NCBI GenBank assembly: GCA_017474235.1
Contig: JAFVIB010000015.1
Coordinates: 1-51,242 of the forward strand
DNA from: Alistipes sp.
GTDB lineage: Bacteria; Bacteroidota; Bacteroidia; Bacteroidales; Rikenellaceae
Length of the DNA: 51,242 nucleotides
Direction of reading: 5' to 3'
Shown here: positions 1,312 through 18,255 of the stretch, piece by piece
How positions within the stretch are numbered: position 1 is the first letter of the stretch
How the letters are laid out: each line of letters begins with the position of its first letter
Position numbers and translations under genes: made by a program
The notes under the pieces: model-generated
The model's database searches: none
Seen by the model: only the letters and a program-made list of their open reading frames with translations
Told to the model about the DNA's origin: nothing

Positions 1312-4300
1312 TGAGCAGATTTACAGAGATATTAGAGAGCCGAATAGTTGTTCTTGATGGTGCTATGGGCACTATGATACAGCGTTACGGGCTCTCGGAG
1401 GCTGACTTTAGGGGCAGTGAGTTTACTCTTCATCCAAAGCGATTGGAGGGTAATAATGATATGCTTGTGCTGACCCGTCCGGATGTTATATCGGCGATAC
1501 ACCGTCAATATCTTGAGGCGGGAGCTGATATTATCGAGACCTGCACATTCAATAGTCAGCGCATATCACAGAGCGAGTATGGTACAGAGAGCCTTGTTCG
1601 AAGGTTGAACCTTGAGGCGGTAAAGATTGCCCGTCAGCAGGCTGATAGGATGAGTGCCATTACGCCTGATAAACCTCGATTTGTAGCAGGCTCGGTAGGT
1701 CCTACGGGGAAGATGCTCTCGATGTCGCCCGATGTGGATAATCCGGCACTGAGAGAGGTCGATTTTGATACTCTGAAGAGTGCCTATATAGAGCAGATTG
1801 ATGCACTTGTCGAGGGTGGTGTGGATATGCTGCTTGTGGAGACGGTCTTTGATACACTCAATGCCAAAGCGGCTCTTATGGCGGCAGAGGAGGTCTTTGA
1901 GCGTCGAGGGAAGAGGGTTGATGTGATGCTCTCTATAACTGTTGCCGATGCTGCGGGTAGAACTCTCTCGGGTCAGACTCTTGAGGCTGTAGTGGCATCG
2001 ACTGCACATTTTAATCTTACTACAATAGGTCTTAACTGCTCGTTTGGTGCAGCGCAAATGGAACCGTTCTTAAGAGAACTGTCTGATGTAACGCGCTGTT
2101 ATGTAAGTGCTTATCCAAATGCAGGTCTGCCTGATGCAATGGGAAACTATGACCAAACACCACAAATGATGGCTACGCATATTGCTCGATTTGCAAGTCG
2201 CGGAATGGTCAATGTTGTCGGTGGTTGCTGTGGCTCAACGCCTGAGCATATTGCAGCCATTGCAGAGGCTGTTAAGGATATTGCTCCGAGAAAGAGGGTA
2301 GAGCGAAGTGCGGGCTGGCTTGCCGGTTTGGAGGCTTTTGAGAGTAACGGAGCGTTTATAAATGTCGGTGAGAGGTGTAATGTTGCGGGTAGTCGTAAAT
2401 TCTTGCGATTGATTGCCGAGCGTGACTACTCTCAGGCTCTTGCAATAGCCCGTAAGCAGGTGGAAGACGGAGCGATGTTGCTCGATATAAATATGGACGA
2501 TGCTATGCTCGATTCGGAGAGTCAAATGGTTGAGTTTCTGAATATTATGGCATCAGACCCTGATGTGGCGCGTGTGCCGTGGATGGTCGATTCGTCACGC
2601 TTTGAGGTTATTGTTGCAGCACTTAAGGCTATTCAGGGTAAGGCTGTTGTAAACTCCCTGTCACTTAAGGAGGGAGAGGATATTTTTGTCGAGAGGGCAA
2701 AGATTGTCAAGAGCTTCGGTGCTGCGTTAGTGGTTATGGCGTTTGATGAGCAGGGTCAGGCAACGACCTTTGAACGCAAAGTAGAGATATGCAGCAGAGC
2801 CTACCGACTGCTTACAGAGAGGGTCGGCTTTGAGGGGCGAGATATAATTTTTGACCCTAATATTCTGACGGTTGCTACGGGTATTGAGGAGCATAATCGC
2901 TATGCTATTGACTTTATACGGGCAGCGAAGTGGATACGAGAGAATATGCCACAGGTGCATATCAGTGGAGGTGTGAGCAACCTCTCTTTTGCCTTCCGCG
3001 GTAATAACTATATCCGTGAGGCTATGCACGCAGTGTTCCTCTATCACGCCTCGGCAGCGGGTATGGATATGGCGATTGTAAACCCTTCAGCATCAGTGAT
3101 GTATGAAGATATACAGCCTGCTCTCCGTGAGGCTTTGGAGGATGTTGTTCTTGCTCGTCGTACAGATGCAGCTGAGCGATTGACAGAGCTTGCTGCGCAG
3201 TTTATGCAGGGAGATAGTGGTTCAGAGAAGGCAGTTGAGCGTGATAAAATATCGCTTGAGGAGCGACTCTGTTCTGCACTTCAGCGTGGCGATGAGAGTT
3301 TTCTTGAGCAGGATTTGGAGGAGGCTCTGAGGGTCTATCCGTCGGCTGCTGCAATCATTGAGAAACCTCTTATGAGGGGTATGATGAGGGTCGGAGAGCT
3401 CTTTGGAGAGGGTAAGATGTTCTTGCCACAGGTTGTAAAGACGGCGCGAACAATGAAGCGCGCAGTGGCTATTCTGCAACCTCATATCGGCAACCAATCG
3501 GTTACGGCGAGTGCCGGCAAATACCTTGTGGCGACGGTTAAGGGCGATGTTCACGATATAGGAAAGAATATAGCCTCTGTAATCTTGCGTTGTAACGGTT
3601 TTGAGGTTATAGACTTGGGCGTTATGGTCTCGGCAGAGAGTATTGTCGAGGCGGCAAAGAGATATAGTGTCGATTATATCGGTCTTAGCGGACTTATCAC
3701 TCCGTCGTTGGAGCAGATGTCTGTAACGGCAAAGATGCTCCGTGAGGCTGGGGTGGATGTACCTCTGTTTATCAGTGGCGCAACAACATCGCCACTCCAT
3801 ACGGCAGTCAAAATTGCACCATACTATAACGGTGCAGTATTCCATATCAAAGATGCCTCTCAAAATCCTGTTTTGGCTCTACAACTTGCTACTACAGAGA
3901 GAGATACAATTATCGCACAAAATCGTGAGCAACAGCAGACCCTGCGCGAAGAGTTCCGCACGAAGTCTGCTCCGAAGAGTGAAGTTTTGCCGCGACTTGA
4001 ACTCGATTGGCAGAGTGAAATTGTTAAGCACGACGGTTTTTTGATAGGTTGGGAGCCGAAGGGTGTGACTCTTTCAAAGGTGCGCAAATATATCAATTGG
4101 CGTACTTTCCACCACTTCTGGCGTACCTCGCCATATACCAAAGAGGGTAGGGCTTTGAGGGCAGAGGCAGAGCGTATTTTGAACCGCTTTAATGGTCAGA
4201 TGCTCCGCGGACGAGTAATCACGGTCGAAGCCTACTCTGAGGGCGATACTATTGTTGTAAATGGAGTTGGTCTGAGTATTACTATACCTACACCGCGTCA

Positions 4301-12890: not shown

Positions 12891-14169
12891 GGGCTTTGAG
12901 CCTGATAAACTTATCGAGGATTTTACTGTCGGAGCAGACAGAGAGCTTGACTTGCGCTTGGCGCGTTATGATGTCGAGGGCTCAATGGCTCATATCAGAA
13001 TGTTGGAGAGTATAGGGCTTATTGAGAGTAGTGAGTTACCACTGCTCTTGGCGGCTTTAGAGCGTATTGCAGCCACTATTGAGCGCGGTGAGTTTACTAT
13101 CGAGGAGGGCGTTGAGGATGTCCACTCACAGGTCGAGCTGATGCTTACACGCGAGTTGGGTGATATGGGAAAGAAGATTCACTCAGGTCGTTCCCGAAAT
13201 GATCAGGTGCTTGTGGATTTGAAGCTCTTTATGCGCGATGAGCTGCGCAGCCTCTCGGAGCATATCGTTACGCTGTTTAATCGCTTGCAGTCACTGAGCG
13301 ATAAGCATAAAGATACCCTTATGCCGGGCTATACACACCTTCAGGTGGCTATGCCGTCATCGTTTGGTTTGTGGTTTGGTGCATACGCAGAGTCTTTGGT
13401 CGATGATATGGAGATGGTCGCTGCGGCGTATAATATTGCCAATCAAAACCCTCTCGGCTCGGCTGCGGGCTATGGCTCCTCTTTCCCACTCGATAGAGAG
13501 ATGACAACATCGTTGCTGGGCTTTGCTACGCTGAACTATAATGTTGTTGCAGCGCAGATGAGCCGAGGAAAGACCGAGCGAGCAGCTGCATACGCTATCG
13601 CTTCGGTGGCATCGACTTTGGGTAAATTTGCGATGGATGTATGTCTGTTTATGTGTCAGAATTTCGGGTTTATATCCTTCCCTGACAACCTTACAACAGG
13701 CTCAAGCATTATGCCGCACAAGAAGAATCCGGATGTATTTGAGATTATGAGGGGCAAGTGCAACCGCCTTCAGGCTGTACCGAATGAGATTTCGCTGCTG
13801 ACAACAAATCTGCCGCTTGGCTATCATCGTGATTTGCAGCTGCTTAAAGATATTATATTCCCTGCAACCACGACCCTCTGTCAGTGTCTTGATATGTGTG
13901 ATTTTATGTTGCAGCATATCATTATAAAGGAGAATATTGTTCAGGGCGAGCAGTATAACTACCTCTTTACCGTTGAGGATGTTAATAGATTGACCCTTGC
14001 CGGAGTGCCGTTCCGCGAGGCTTATAAAGAGGTCGGTATGGCTGTGCAGCGTGGCGAATATACTCCTACCCGCGAGGTAAATCATACCCATATCGGAAGT
14101 ATAGGCAATCTGTGCAATGATAAAATTGCAGAAAAGATGAATAAAGTTGTTAAGAAGTTTGGATTCTGA
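12874..14169 (+). CDS. argH: Argininosuccinate lyase
   Basis: It splits argininosuccinate into arginine and fumarate, the last pathway step. The 431-residue product has VHSQVELML, HSGRSRNDQVLVD and the fumarase-superfamily signature GSSIMPHKKNPD around residues 277-288. The ATG at 12874 gives the family start MKLWNKGFEPD. A TTG two codons earlier is less likely. It overlaps argE by 17 bp. No terminator is seen between its stop and the Phe/Tyr leader: the -33 box of the next promoter lies in its last codons, so arginine-operon transcripts could run into the aromatic attenuator. Confidence 0.96.
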   Translation: MKLWNKGFEPDKLIEDFTVGADRELDLRLARYDVEGSMAHIRMLESIGLIESSELPLLLAALERIAATIERGEFTIEEGVEDVHSQVELMLTRELGDMGKKIHSGRSRNDQVLVDLKLFMRDELRSLSEHIVTLFNRLQSLSDKHKDTLMPGYTHLQVAMPSSFGLWFGAYAESLVDDMEMVAAAYNIANQNPLGSAAGYGSSFPLDREMTTSLLGFATLNYNVVAAQMSRGKTERAAAYAIASVASTLGKFAMDVCLFMCQNFGFISFPDNLTTGSSIMPHKKNPDVFEIMRGKCNRLQAVPNEISLLTTNLPLGYHRDLQLLKDIIFPATTTLCQCLDMCDFMLQHIIIKENIVQGEQYNYLFTVEDVNRLTLAGVPFREAYKEVGMAVQRGEYTPTREVNHTHIGSIGNLCNDKIAEKMNKVVKKFGF

Positions 14170-14189
14170 AAAAAAAATAACTAATTTTG
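14158..14189 (+). promoter_or_regulatory. Promoter of the Phe/Tyr operon
   Basis: TTTG (14158-14161, inside the last argH codons), 20 bp, then TAATTTTG (14182-14189) matches the Bacteroides consensus. The predicted start is near 14193, about 16 nt before the leader peptide ATG. Confidence 0.72.
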
Positions 14190-14208
14190 TAGTATAAACG
14201 GTTAGGTT

Positions 14209-14268
14209 ATGCAAGGCTCACGATTTTTTGGTTACTTTTATTATTACTTCTTTACCCAGATGGATTAA
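14209..14268 (+). CDS. Phe/Tyr leader peptide of the aromatic operon
   Basis: A 19-codon ORF with the product MQGSRFFGYFYYYFFTQMD: nine of the ten codons from 6 to 15 are Phe or Tyr (five Phe, four Tyr). It lies between a consensus promoter and an intrinsic terminator, immediately before prephenate dehydratase. This is the layout of an attenuation leader: ribosomes that stall for charged tRNA-Phe or tRNA-Tyr would uncover the antiterminator. The peptide itself is not expected to have another role. It was found by reading the sequence, being too short for routine gene calling. Confidence 0.88.
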   Translation: MQGSRFFGYFYYYFFTQMD

Positions 14269-14330
14269 GGAGCGGTAACCCGTGTGCAGATATATATGTA
14301 TAGAGCCGTTCCTTTGGGGAGCGGCTTTTT
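14230..14330 (+). promoter_or_regulatory. Transcription attenuator with alternative hairpins
   Basis: Four segments pair as in E. coli-type attenuators. Segment 1 GGTTAC (14230-14235, within the aromatic codons) can pair with segment 2 GTAACC (14275-14280). Segment 2 also includes AAGGAGCGG (14267-14275), which can pair with CCGTTCCTT (14306-14314) as antiterminator, nine pairs with one G-U. That left arm otherwise pairs with segment 4 in the terminator. Stalling on Phe/Tyr codons hides segment 1 and should favour antitermination. A ribosome reaching the stop at 14266-14268 covers segment 2 and should favour termination. Confidence 0.85.
14304..14330 (+). terminator. Attenuator terminator hairpin
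   Basis: AGCCGTTCC (14304-14312) pairs with GGAGCGGCT (14318-14326), nine pairs with one G-U, a 5-nt loop, then TTTTT. It lies 20 bp before the pheA ATG, so it controls entry into the operon rather than ending one. Confidence 0.9.
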
Positions 14331-14349
14331 ATTTGAATAGACAAGATTT

Positions 14350-15195
14350 ATGAAAAAAGTTGCTATACAGGGATATGCAGGGTCGTTTCACCATATTGCA
14401 GCGCAGCAGTATGAGGGTTGTGCGGTAGAGATTCTTCCGTGCGACACTTTTCGCGCTGTGGCTCGTGCAGTAGAGAGTAGAGAGGTTGATTATGGTGTGA
14501 TGGCTATCGAAAACTCTATTGCAGGCTCGATACTTCCGAATTATAACATTTTGCAGCGATGTAATATCCATATTTCGGGTGAGATATATCTTCAAATACG
14601 CCAAAACCTTATGGTTAATCGTGGTGTGAAGTTGGAGGATATCAGAGAGGTTGAGTCGCATCAGATGGCACTGCTCCAGTGCGCCGAGTACCTTGATGCC
14701 CACCCGTGGCGACTTGTCGAGAGTGCCGATACGGCATTGAGTGCATCACTTCTGCAAAAGAGCGGCTCTCGCACTACGGCGGCTGTCGCGGGAGCATTGG
14801 CGGCAGAACTGTTTGACCTCGATATTGTGGCAAAAGATATACATACAAATCGAAATAACTACACCCGCTTCCTTATCTTGGAGTATTGCGATAGGACTGT
14901 TTTTGCGCCGGAGGCAGAGAGTAGTGAGGGTAATAAGGCTTCGCTATACTTCAAAATCCCCGACACTTCAGGCTCGCTGTATGATGTTTTGGGCTCATTC
15001 GAGGGGTTGGGTATCAATATGACAAAGTTGCAGTCATACCCTATTGCCGACCAGCCGTTCCACTATATGTTCCATACAGATATGGAGTTTGAGAATATCG
15101 CAGCCCTTCGTGATGCGGTACAGAATATGAGAGCAAAGGGCGTTGAGGTGCATATCTACGGAGTGTATAACAAGAATACGGATTTTGAGCTATGA
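14350..15195 (+). CDS. pheA: Prephenate dehydratase with ACT domain
   Basis: It converts prephenate to phenylpyruvate in phenylalanine synthesis. The 281-residue product has the dehydratase fold (about 1-180: VAIQGYAGSFHHIAA, MAIENSIAGSI, NNYTRFLIL) and a C-terminal ACT domain (about 193-275: SLYFKIPDTSGSLYDVLGSF, where family members bind Phe). There is no N-terminal chorismate mutase. That activity sits on the last gene of the operon. The gene stands directly behind the Phe/Tyr attenuator and its end overlaps the aminotransferase start by 4 bp. Confidence 0.95.
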   Translation: MKKVAIQGYAGSFHHIAAQQYEGCAVEILPCDTFRAVARAVESREVDYGVMAIENSIAGSILPNYNILQRCNIHISGEIYLQIRQNLMVNRGVKLEDIREVESHQMALLQCAEYLDAHPWRLVESADTALSASLLQKSGSRTTAAVAGALAAELFDLDIVAKDIHTNRNNYTRFLILEYCDRTVFAPEAESSEGNKASLYFKIPDTSGSLYDVLGSFEGLGINMTKLQSYPIADQPFHYMFHTDMEFENIAALRDAVQNMRAKGVEVHIYGVYNKNTDFEL

Positions 15196-16346
15196 GCAGT
15201 AAGTTCCAACCAATACTTTCACAGCGTCTTGATGGCGTAGGCGAATACTATTTCTCTCGTAAGTTGCGCGAGATAGACTCTCTCCGTGCAGCCGGCAAGA
15301 GTATCATCTCTTTGGGTATAGGCAGCCCCGATATGCCGCCACATCCTACCGTTACGGCTCGCTTGGCAGCAGAGAGCGCAAAGAGTACAGCTCACGGATA
15401 CCAATCTTATAAGGGCGCAGCAGAGCTTCGTGAGGCTTTTGCAGGTTGGTATAGCAGAAAGTTCGGTGTGGAGCTTGACCCGTCAAGTGAGATTATGCCG
15501 CTCATAGGCTCAAAAGAGGGTATTATGCATATCTCGATGACATACCTCAATAGTGGCGATAGAGTCCTTGTACCAAATCCCGGGTACCCGACATATACAT
15601 CGGCAGTGACCCTTGCCGGAGGTGTGGCAACTCCATATAGCCTTACGGCAGAGAGTGGTTGGATGCCTGACTTTGAGAGTATTGATACTTCGGGTGTGAA
15701 GATGATGATTATAAACTATCCGCATATGCCTACCGGTGCAGTGGCAACTTTGGAGCAGTTAGAGCGCATAGTTTCATTCTGCCGTAAGCACTCTATACTG
15801 CTGCTCAATGACAACCCTTACGGCTTTATTCGTAATGCAGAGCCGGTAAGTCTGCTTCAGGTTGAGGGGGCAAAGGAGGTGGCTATGGAGCTCAATTCGC
15901 TCAGCAAGAGCCATAATATGGCGGGCTGGCGTATAGGTATGCTTGCCGCATCAAAAGAGCGTATAGATGAGATACTGAGATTTAAGAGCAATATGGACTC
16001 GGGAATGTTCCTGCCACTTCAACTTGCCGCTGCGACTGCTTTGAGTTTGGGTGATGAGTGGTATGAGGAGCAGAACAGAGAGTACTACGCTCGTGAGCAG
16101 ATAGGCAAGGCTATATTCGATGCTTTGGGTATTGAATATGCCGCAAATCAAGCGGGACTGTTCCTTTGGGGCAGACTGCCTGAGGGGGAGAATTGCTACG
16201 ATTTTTGCGATAAACTGCTCTATGAAAAGGGTGTGTTCCTCACCCCGGGCGGTATATTCGGCAGTGAGGGTGACAGATATATGCGTTTGAGCCTTTGCGC
16301 TCCGCAGAGTCTGCTTGTTCAGGTACTTAATAAAGTGAAGATATGA
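15192..16346 (+). CDS. Class I/II aminotransferase, probable aromatic
   Basis: PLP fold-type I aminotransferase of 384 residues. The PLP lysine is in LNSLSKSHNMAGWR around residue 238. YPHMPTGA and NDNPYGF replace the usual NPNNPTG and DEAYxD motifs, and the terminal part carries the arginine that binds the substrate carboxylate (YMRLSLCAP). Its position between pheA and tyrA, with 4-bp overlaps on both sides, argues that it makes the final transamination to phenylalanine and tyrosine. Sequence alone would equally allow an aspartate, alanine or LL-diaminopimelate-type enzyme. Confidence 0.88.
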   Translation: MSSKFQPILSQRLDGVGEYYFSRKLREIDSLRAAGKSIISLGIGSPDMPPHPTVTARLAAESAKSTAHGYQSYKGAAELREAFAGWYSRKFGVELDPSSEIMPLIGSKEGIMHISMTYLNSGDRVLVPNPGYPTYTSAVTLAGGVATPYSLTAESGWMPDFESIDTSGVKMMIINYPHMPTGAVATLEQLERIVSFCRKHSILLLNDNPYGFIRNAEPVSLLQVEGAKEVAMELNSLSKSHNMAGWRIGMLAASKERIDEILRFKSNMDSGMFLPLQLAAATALSLGDEWYEEQNREYYAREQIGKAIFDALGIEYAANQAGLFLWGRLPEGENCYDFCDKLLYEKGVFLTPGGIFGSEGDRYMRLSLCAPQSLLVQVLNKVKI

Positions 16347-17188
16347 GAGTTGCAGTTATAGGTTTGGGTCTTATTGGTGGCTCGTTTGCTTTGGCTCTCA
16401 AGGCAAAAGGCATAGCTACTACGGTTGTGGGTGTTGAGGCAAATCCTCAGCACGCGGCTATGGCTATAGAGTTGGGTATTGTCGATAGCGTGATGCCACT
16501 ACAAGAGGCTGTTGCAGAGGCAGAGTTGATTGCAATAGCTGTTCCGGTGGATGTTATACCACAGGTGGCAATAAAGGTGCTCAATAGAGTTACAGAGAGT
16601 CAGATTGTTATAGATATGGGCTCGACAAAGGAGGAGCTGTGCGAGATGATTAGTCTGCATCCTATGCGCCATCGCTTTGTGGCTACGCACCCTATGTGGG
16701 GTACAGAGTTCAGTGGTCCACAGGCGGCTACGGCAGACTCTTTTGCAGGGAGAAATGTCGTTATTTGCGAGAAGAGTCGCTCGGCAGTAGAGGCTGTTGA
16801 GAGGGTAGAGGCTCTTTACCGCGCTTTGGGTATGGATATCCTTGAGATGGAGGCTGAGCAGCACGACCTTCACGCTGCCTATGTGAGCCATATATCGCAC
16901 ATCACCTCTTTTATACTCTCTACAACCGTGCTTGAGAAGGAACGCGAGGAGGAGGCTATATTTAACCTCGCCGGTGGAGGTTTTGATAGTACTGTCCGCC
17001 TTGCAAAGAGTAATGCAGATACTTGGATTCCGATTTTTACACAAAATAAGTATAATATTCTCGATGTGCTGCGTGAATATATCCACCAACTTAACCTCTT
17101 CCGCAAGGCGTTGGAGAGGGATGATACGGTGGCACTGCGAGAGATTATCACTCGTGCAAACGATATTAGAAAAGTCTTACAAGAATAA
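16343..17188 (+). CDS. tyrA: Prephenate dehydrogenase
   Basis: NAD(P)-dependent oxidative decarboxylation of prephenate to 4-hydroxyphenylpyruvate. The product has 281 residues, with a dinucleotide site VIGLGLIGGSFALAL at the N-terminus, VIDMGSTKEELC, FVATHPMWGTEFSGP (catalytic-type His), and the helical dimerisation domain with YVSHISHITSF. There is no ACT or chorismate mutase domain, so feedback control is expected to sit elsewhere. The start overlaps the aminotransferase by 4 bp. Confidence 0.94.
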   Translation: MRVAVIGLGLIGGSFALALKAKGIATTVVGVEANPQHAAMAIELGIVDSVMPLQEAVAEAELIAIAVPVDVIPQVAIKVLNRVTESQIVIDMGSTKEELCEMISLHPMRHRFVATHPMWGTEFSGPQAATADSFAGRNVVICEKSRSAVEAVERVEALYRALGMDILEMEAEQHDLHAAYVSHISHITSFILSTTVLEKEREEEAIFNLAGGGFDSTVRLAKSNADTWIPIFTQNKYNILDVLREYIHQLNLFRKALERDDTVALREIITRANDIRKVLQE

Positions 17189-17199
17189 TATATTGAGAT

Positions 17200-18255
17200 A
17201 TGCTTGATATTAAGTCAAAGAAACCGTTGATTATTGCAGGTCCTTGCTCTGCCGAGACCGTAGAGCAGACCCTTGAGACTGCAAAAGCCCTTGCTGCATC
17301 AGGTAAGGTTGATATATTCCGTGCAGGTGTCTGGAAACCTCGTACAAAACCCGGAGGCTTCGAGGGTGTGGGTATTCCTGCGCTACCGTGGCTTGTTGAG
17401 GTGAAAAAGAGTACCGGTCTGCCTGTGGCTATCGAGGTGGCAAATGCCAAACATGTCGAGAGCGCGCTGGCTTTCGGTATAGATATGTTTTGGATTGGTG
17501 CGCGCACGACCTCAAATCCGTTTAGTGTTCAAGAGATTGCCGAGTCGCTGCGAGGAACAGATATTCCGGTGCTTGTTAAAAATCCGATGAATGCCGATGT
17601 GGAGCTGTGGAATGGCGCAGTTGAACGCCTTGCAAAGTGCGGCATTAAGCAGTTGGGTCTTATACATCGCGGATTTTCGGGCTATGGGTCAAGTCAGTAT
17701 CGTAATACTCCGATGTGGCACTTGGCTATCGAGATTCAGAAACGCCTTCCGGAGCTACCTATCTTCTGCGATCCGTCACATATCTGCGGTAATCGCGAAC
17801 TCCTCCTTGATGTCTCCCAGCAGGCTGCAGACCTTAACTTTGACGGTATTATGGTTGAGAGCCATATCTCTCCGCAGAGTGCTTGGTCAGATGCAAAGCA
17901 ACAGGTCACTCCGGCAGACCTTGTGGCGATGCTTGATACTATTATTTGGCGTGCCGAGGGGTCAGATTCGGTGGCTTATCAGACCTCGCTCGATGAGCTG
18001 CGTGGTGTTATCGACCGCCTTGATGATGAGATTCTTAACCTTATCTCAAAGCGTATGGAGGCAGCCGAGGGTATCGGTCGTATAAAGCGCGAGAATAATG
18101 TTATGATTCTCCAATCATCTCGTTGGAATCAGGTTGTCGAGCGCGTTCTTGCCCGCTCGGAGGAGCTGGGTCTGAGTCGTGATTTTCTAAATATTATCCT
18201 TGAGGCAATCCATATCGAGAGTATCAACAAGCAAAATCGCGTGATGCAGAAGTAG
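17200..18255 (+). CDS. DAHP synthase-chorismate mutase fusion
   Basis: Bifunctional enzyme of 351 residues. Residues 1-255 are a KDO8P-synthase-like (type I-beta) DAHP synthase: LIIAGPCSAET, FRAGVWKPRTKPGGFEG, IFCDPSHICGNR. Residues 263-351 are an AroQ-type chorismate mutase: LDELRGVIDRLDDEILNLISKR, with the usual Arg, Lys and Glu positions. It therefore supplies both the first step of the shikimate pathway and the prephenate used by PheA and TyrA. Relatives in Prevotella and Porphyromonas show allosteric coupling between the two domains, from memory. It starts 11 bp after tyrA and a strong terminator follows. Confidence 0.95.
   Translation: MLDIKSKKPLIIAGPCSAETVEQTLETAKALAASGKVDIFRAGVWKPRTKPGGFEGVGIPALPWLVEVKKSTGLPVAIEVANAKHVESALAFGIDMFWIGARTTSNPFSVQEIAESLRGTDIPVLVKNPMNADVELWNGAVERLAKCGIKQLGLIHRGFSGYGSSQYRNTPMWHLAIEIQKRLPELPIFCDPSHICGNRELLLDVSQQAADLNFDGIMVESHISPQSAWSDAKQQVTPADLVAMLDTIIWRAEGSDSVAYQTSLDELRGVIDRLDDEILNLISKRMEAAEGIGRIKRENNVMILQSSRWNQVVERVLARSEELGLSRDFLNIILEAIHIESINKQNRVMQK

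Follow-up and report, generated by a model that had tools for sequence, protein, structure and literature searches.

The region 5' of pheA in an Alistipes sp. genome of 1.97 Mb (GCA_017474235.1) holds a short open reading frame (ORF) crowded with Phe and Tyr codons in front of a joint Phe/Tyr operon. The window, that is the whole 51,242-nucleotide stretch of contig JAFVIB010000015.1 analyzed here, thereby raises the question whether this region acts as a transcription attenuator, which amino acids it would sense and how widely it is shared. An earlier note on this DNA had proposed a promoter, a 19-residue leader ORF with five Phe and four Tyr in ten codons, three mutually exclusive RNA pairings (1:2, 2:3 and 3:4) and a pheA-aminotransferase-tyrA-DAHPS/CM operon behind them. 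The features are collected in Table 1.

Table 1. Positions in the window of the leader region, its predicted pairing segments and the downstream operon
Feature	Position	Strand	Details
Bacteroidota-type promoter	14158..14189	+	TTTG 14158-14161 (-33 element), 20-nt spacer, TAATTTTG 14182-14189 (-7 element)
Leader peptide ORF MQGSRFFGYFYYYFFTQMD	14209..14268	+	ATG to TAA, 19 codons before stop
Regulatory codon run	14224..14253	+	5 Phe and 4 Tyr in ten codons; read from the sequence
Segment 1	14219..14252	+	pairing parts 14219-14222, 14230-14236, 14247-14252
Segment 2	14267..14284	+	forms the protector with segment 1 or the antiterminator with segment 3; starts inside leader stop codon
Segment 3	14302..14314	+	terminator 5' arm, also antiterminator 3' arm
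Segment 4	14316..14331	+	terminator 3' arm and T tract
pheA, prephenate dehydratase	14350..15195	+	first gene of the putatively controlled operon; Pfam PDT, PF00800, E 1.3e-55
Class I/II aminotransferase	15192..16346	+	Pfam Aminotran_1_2, PF00155
tyrA, prephenate dehydrogenase	16343..17188	+	Pfam PDH_N and PDH_C, PF02153 and PF20463
DAHP synthase fused to chorismate mutase (DAHPS/CM)	17200..18255	+	Pfam DAHP_synth_1 and CM_2, PF00793 and PF01817

Organization of the leader region and its predicted folds

The leader ORF was found exactly as described, with codons 6 to 15 reading F F G Y F Y Y Y F F, nine of the ten being aromatic. The Pfam matches of all four downstream genes bore out the position of the region ahead of the operon, the genes of which overlap or are separated by an 11-nt gap. 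On the other side argH ends at 14169, immediately 5' of the putative attenuator region. The proposed promoter was also found, and its type is that of the Bacteroidota (TTTG, 20 nt, TAnnTTTG): the -7 element fits TAnnTTTG, and transcription presumably starts a few bases 3' of it. A scan of 13900-14500 for the sigma-70 consensus gave no site on the plus strand. When the window was scanned generically for amino-acid-rich short ORFs before terminators, the Phe/Tyr site was recovered together with one weak Cys-rich match on the minus strand (3860-3961, a hairpin preceded by a short ORF with 4 Cys in ten codons), which is probably due to chance.

Folding of the complete leader gave the terminating form, in which pairings 1:2 and 3:4 are combined (z -2.0, with 7 of 200 shuffles as good). 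The 3:4 terminator hairpin has a predicted energy of -17.7 kcal/mol, and one intrinsic terminator stem with a T tail was found at 14302-14328, where the shuffle mean was 0.4. The fold predicted for 14266-14314 contains the 2:3 antiterminator, 14267-14276 with 14305-14314; at -18.3 kcal/mol (z -4.7) this fold was equalled by none of 200 shuffles. The 1:2 pairing appears in the predicted fold as 14230-14236/14274-14280, 14247-14252/14267-14272 and 14219-14222/14281-14284, with an energy not better than that of the shuffles (z -0.5, 56 of 200 equal it).

Covariation was counted on an alignment of 16 sequences, including row L042, the terminator of which seems to be misaligned. For 2:3, 3:4 and 1:2 (the two main parts of the latter), 90.4%, 81.3% and 96.5% of the pair cells were kept. 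In the same order, 2, 11 and 9 cells had changed on both sides, and at least as many arose in 28, 0 and 0 of 500 shuffles; when whole pairs were counted, 1, 5 and 4 had changed on both sides (224, 18 and 40 of 500 shuffles). In the close group the 2:3 helix keeps its pairing yet is mostly invariant, with in-register covariation in a single pair, and the case for 2:3 therefore rests on the shuffle tests. The putative 1:2 protector overlapping the regulatory codons is supported by the comparative counts, although it is not significant by energy alone. Predicted folds and comparative counts thus agree with the three mutually exclusive pairings that the earlier note had drawn, and compensatory changes of the kind that it had proposed to look for were seen in all three helices, in 2:3 in only one pair.

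Conservation around pheA and across the class Bacteroidia

To the 110 pheA loci collected we applied two filters, removing five with cut or partial pheA starts and eight with duplicate upstream sequences, which left 97 distinct upstream regions of 350 nt, the window's own locus among them. At a threshold of at least six aromatic residues in ten codons, a Phe/Tyr-dense short ORF lay 5' of pheA in 80 of the 97, versus 71 of 4850 shuffles. Before other genes of the same loci such ORFs occurred in 8 of 535 regions, and three of these eight are probably the Algoriphagus leaders described below. With the threshold at five or more in ten, a terminator stood between the aromatic run and pheA in 78 of 85 leaders (65 of 850 shuffles), the scan giving none after the other 7; the 1:2 energy over 78 loci had a mean z of -1.5, 37 of them lying below -1.64.

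Antiterminator and spacing were evaluated at the threshold of six. The stretch from the last aromatic codon to the terminator was matched against the terminator 5' arm and compared with 200 shuffles of that stretch. The best partner beat the shuffles (p<0.05) in 56 of the 75 loci of the first set (mean z -3.3) and in 26 of 31 loci of the class-wide sample (mean z -3.6), significance not being reached in the remaining 19 and 5. Among 106 loci, 92 distinct segment-2 strings were counted, so that the pairing is kept while the sequence changes. Segment 2 starts at a median of 11 nt past the last aromatic codon; in 105 of the 106 the leader stop codon ends at most 8 nt short of this start, or past it, and in 72 segment 2 lies entirely within the ORF and its stop codon. 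This spacing is what classical attenuation requires, with ribosome coverage assumed from established knowledge.

The peptide itself varies widely among relatives and its Phe/Tyr content stays. In the comparison that the earlier note had proposed, the pheA upstream regions of relatives proved to share Phe/Tyr codons (not an exact peptide), the terminator and the pairings. When the window was aligned with nine close relatives, a set that omits the more divergent L035, the ORF columns were free of gaps (0 of 570 cells); one relative has its leader stop two codons earlier (L038) and another has Met at codon 7 (L046).

The promoter is shared as well. In 86 of 113 loci, versus 8.6% of shuffles, TAnnTTTG lies in the 80 nt that precede the start codon of the leader, the remaining one of the 114 loci being too short for this count; in 59 loci a TTG followed 17-23 nt further upstream (1.2% of shuffles). 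Directly 5' of pheA the same element was seen in 2 of 114 regions. All 114 leaders have an ATG start available, the choice of start having favored ATG, and a Shine-Dalgarno-like motif precedes the leader ORF in 7 of 110.

The named nearest pheA relatives are metagenome-assembled genomes of Alistipes and Rikenellaceae, several of them from cattle, sheep, goat or deer gut according to the record titles. Within the genus, a covariance model of the leader was built from the alignment. It recovered known distant leaders poorly (E up to 0.9, several loci unmatched) and is therefore fit for the close group only. Under stricter filters the model gave one site in the window's genome at E<=0.1 and sites in 10 of 41 same-genus genomes, of which five are strong pheA leaders (the window's own genome and four siblings), two are weak sites just 5' of pheA (G008, G031) and three lie elsewhere (G033, G024, G004), where the ORF scan gave no leader ORF at the site itself. 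A Phe-rich short ORF with a hairpin near the G033 site, on the opposite strand and with the next frame distant, was set aside as chance.

Amino-acid pathways are patchy across the same-genus genomes. A pheA match (E 1e-20) was absent from 25 of 61, many of them incomplete, and from 10 of the 27 most complete. The anthranilate-synthase N-terminal family had no match among 26 same-genus genomes, the window's own included, and chorismate in this lineage may therefore serve mainly Phe and Tyr. In the same 26, hisG was matched in 5, the window's genome not being one of them. Three of the five hisG loci that were fetched (L221, L222, L224) have His-codon leaders followed by terminators 5' of hisG, with the sequences MITAINIHHHHHILQEVR, MTFTLNIHHYHHILRKIG and one third; in this lineage such a leader and terminator likely form a his attenuator.

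Class membership in Bacteroidia was taken from the record names of the pheA loci. Records with a leader before pheA include those of Dysgonomonas, Paludibacter, Reichenbachiella, Flavobacterium, Saprospiraceae and Cryomorphaceae. The expectation that Bacteroidales relatives would carry the element was thus correct and needs one refinement, since Flavobacterium, Saprospiraceae, Reichenbachiella and Cryomorphaceae show that it is not limited to that order. For a sample not ordered by sequence similarity, genomes were drawn evenly from the phylum and the class; PF00800 was matched in 41 of the 149 class genomes drawn and in none of the other 108. Of 50 same-class genomes with pheA, 49 were used (G281, with a partial pheA, was dropped), and at six or more aromatic residues in ten a leader preceded pheA in 34 of these 49, rows that are not independent, five genomes of one family (f44) for example all being negative. 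Among the 15 without a pheA leader, three (G136, G171, G197) have a leader before DAHPS/CM, searched at five or more in ten; one of the three has just five aromatic codons in ten, and a further match in L225, which lies after DAHPS/CM, was left out of the count. The remaining 12 of 49 gave no leader before pheA or DAHPS/CM at the thresholds used. Two of them (L150, L163) have a weaker ORF before pheA, with four aromatic residues in ten and a terminator, and in a third (L226) only 199 nt before DAHPS/CM were scannable. Outside the class, where the search covered the region upstream of pheA, none of the 28 best-scoring loci had a leader, 15 of these being from one family (f16).

In three Algoriphagus records a leader and terminator, absent at pheA, stand before DAHPS/CM at the threshold of six (L086:1377-1472, L105:1377-1472, L108:1378-1473). 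The DAHPS/CM gene of these records is located upstream of pheA and its leader about 3.4 kb upstream of pheA. Because the element precedes DAHPS/CM here and in 3 of the 15 class-sample genomes lacking a pheA leader, it seems to go with whichever gene comes first in the operon. Of the 114 leaders, 100 have a detected DAHPS domain downstream and 73 have tyrA; among the 41 without tyrA are 17 loci, including the short one taken from the window, that do not extend far enough to judge. Finally, three Prolixibacteraceae loci (L073, L085, L099) have short ORFs with weaker Phe runs before pheA, e.g. MEQKAAYLFFGFIE, and no other operon genes were detected in them. On the sequence evidence, the element is real and recurs in much of the class among genomes with pheA.

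Proposed mechanism and competing explanations

The region combines a leader ORF rich in codons for the products of the operon, an intrinsic terminator, an exclusive antiterminator, a 1:2 protector over the codons and a suitable spacing. Sequence and comparison directly show these parts and that they are conserved, as well as the alternative pairings and how the parts are spaced, and we hold with high confidence that the region is a ribosome-mediated transcription attenuator sensing charged Phe-tRNA and Tyr-tRNA. How the leader would be translated and covered by the ribosome, how transcription would end and how each amino acid would act we infer as follows. RNA polymerase would start past the TAnnTTTG promoter and a ribosome would trail it along the 19-codon leader. 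With Phe or Tyr in short supply, the ribosome would stall on one of the nine aromatic codons and hide segment 1, leaving segment 2, which lies beyond the last aromatic codon, free for segment 3; formation of 2:3 would block the terminator, and pheA-aminotransferase-tyrA-DAHPS/CM would be transcribed. With both amino acids plentiful, the ribosome would reach the stop codon and cover segment 2, or 1:2 would re-form after its release; with segment 2 occupied, 3:4 would form and transcription would end near 14330.

The alternative that survives best leaves this mechanism in place and assumes that only Phe is sensed, the Tyr codons being tolerated replacements. For AroR, the mixed Phe-Tyr-Phe leader of C. 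glutamicum, a response to Phe and none to Tyr is reported (PMC11802643), and one leader of our set (L022) has seven Phe and no Tyr. Against it, each of the two amino acids occurs at least twice in 83 of 85 leaders, in a set that had been chosen for Phe and Tyr. A check that avoids this bias, in which ORFs were chosen by Phe alone and a terminator was required, gave leaders in 107 of 146 regions. Of the 531 residues other than Phe that lie between the outermost Phe positions of these leaders, 273 were Tyr, far more than any other residue that a single mutation of a Phe codon can give (Ser 40, Cys 12, Leu 7, Val 6, Ile 2); Gly accounted for 47. Six in ten was reached with Phe plus Tyr in 114 of the 146 regions and with Phe plus any other residue in at most 46. 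Leaders with tyrA detected behind them had a slightly larger Tyr share of Phe plus Tyr (0.44 in 73 leaders versus 0.37 in 24; Mann-Whitney p 0.049, uncorrected for relatedness), a weak trend among related sequences that we do not rely on. Among the window and its nine close relatives, codons 10-12 swap Phe and Tyr, with two Ser exceptions. As Tyr is the commonest residue between the Phe codons of the Phe-chosen leaders and these codons interchange, selection on the leader, judged from these counts and the alignment, acts on a Phe-or-Tyr codon. We therefore consider a leader that senses Phe alone unlikely. That the attenuator senses Phe is very likely; that it senses Tyr is no more than likely, because the mixed Corynebacterium leader was reported to be unresponsive to Tyr. 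The operon would then respond to a shortage of either amino acid, as had been suggested from the mixed composition. Sensing of all three aromatic amino acids was rejected as a general rule, Trp making up 1.0% of leader residues and being present in 21 of 114 leaders; in several leaders Trp is found inside the aromatic run.

Short ORFs and alternative structures also occur in arrest-peptide, riboswitch and T-box systems. Either arrest by the nascent peptide or a small molecule binding the RNA (riboswitch or T-box), in place of stalling at hungry codons, could thus account for such an arrangement. Against these readings stand a peptide that varies widely while its Phe/Tyr content stays, close relatives exchanging Phe for Tyr, and the Rfam searches of the whole window and of 14 related loci, which included T-box and riboswitch families and in which no family attained its gathering score; both are very improbable. 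To the idea that the hairpin does no more than end the transcript of the arg genes that lie upstream, the Phe/Tyr ORF being incidental, we give hardly any credence: the end of argH is indeed close and the hairpin lies before pheA, but promoter and leader sit between argH and the hairpin, an upstream argH was detected only in the closest relatives whereas leader and terminator recur elsewhere in the class, and in Algoriphagus both stand before DAHPS/CM.

Relation to known systems and wider meaning

Ribosome-mediated attenuation by hungry codons is a classical mechanism, and in this respect the putative attenuator of the window is ordinary. The pheL attenuator of E. coli operates with alternative hairpins and a terminator, and its leader is Phe-only, ahead of a single pheA. 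The leader of the window differs in mixing Phe and Tyr before a joint Phe/Tyr operon. Its RNA does not match the Phe_leader covariance model RF01859 (20.2 bits versus a gathering score of 55, E 0.41), and Shine-Dalgarno-like motifs are rare in the leaders studied here (7 of 110). The Thr_leader model RF00506 likewise stayed below its gathering score (30.2 bits versus 55, E 0.00056). What the E. coli system and that of the window have in common is attenuation ahead of pheA and a leader ORF carrying regulatory codons (PMC11802643). The same source describes AroR before aroF in C. glutamicum, where stalling on a Phe-Tyr-Phe leader before a DAHP synthase operon relieves attenuation; this system is actinobacterial, has three regulatory codons named versus nine here and, as stated above, is reported to be unresponsive to Tyr.

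The Bacteroid-trp RNA motif is tied to trp genes. Like the element described here it is a candidate cis-regulatory RNA of the phylum (RF01692; Bacteroidetes, Table 1 of PMC2864571), and it differs in that its model has no gathering-score match in the window and none at E 0.001 in 41 same-genus genomes, including the window's own. In 2010 the authors of PMC2965389 stated that, the ermC leader aside, leader-peptide systems had been known to them only from Proteobacteria and Actinobacteria until their own case in the Firmicutes. PMC6429828 presents, from a set of five bacterial genomes, two candidate regulatory uORFs in which Phe and Tyr codons stand out and which precede shikimate-metabolism genes; the legend of Fig. 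6b there indicates no link to Bacteroidia. In B. thetaiotaomicron, short ORFs reminiscent of leader peptides were reported (PMC7366714). For Flavobacterium psychrophilum, strong clues for leader-peptide attenuation before amino-acid operons were given (ISME Commun 2021, PMC9723704), in passages that leave the operons unspecified and, unlike the case of the window, name no Phe/Tyr leader; the Phe/Tyr element itself may figure in Table S7 of that paper. Among the literature matches listed, covering titles and the starts of abstracts, a Phe/Tyr leader in Bacteroidota was not named, and a text search of PMC10994844, on B. thetaiotaomicron, gave no match to the terms used. Lopatovskaya et al. 2010 reportedly may include predictions for Bacteroidetes. 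The earlier note had called such a leader little described, which is fair, although the F. psychrophilum clues in PMC9723704 mean that undescribed would be too strong.

On balance we favor the view that a two-input (Phe OR Tyr) attenuator is ancestral to the Bacteroidia, tied to the head of the joint operon and not to pheA, with leaders mostly devoid of Shine-Dalgarno signals and an RNA family outside Rfam. In the literature found, leader-peptide attenuation in this phylum is met in passing remarks alone (PMC9723704, PMC7366714, as far as their passages on leader peptides go). A class-wide Phe/Tyr attenuator would mean that transcription-translation coupling can act as a sensor where leader ORFs mostly lack Shine-Dalgarno signals, and it would offer a readout of that coupling. 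The Phe/Tyr leader would moreover be a natural two-amino-acid sensor, the codons of which can be swapped one by one, easing a test of the two inputs.
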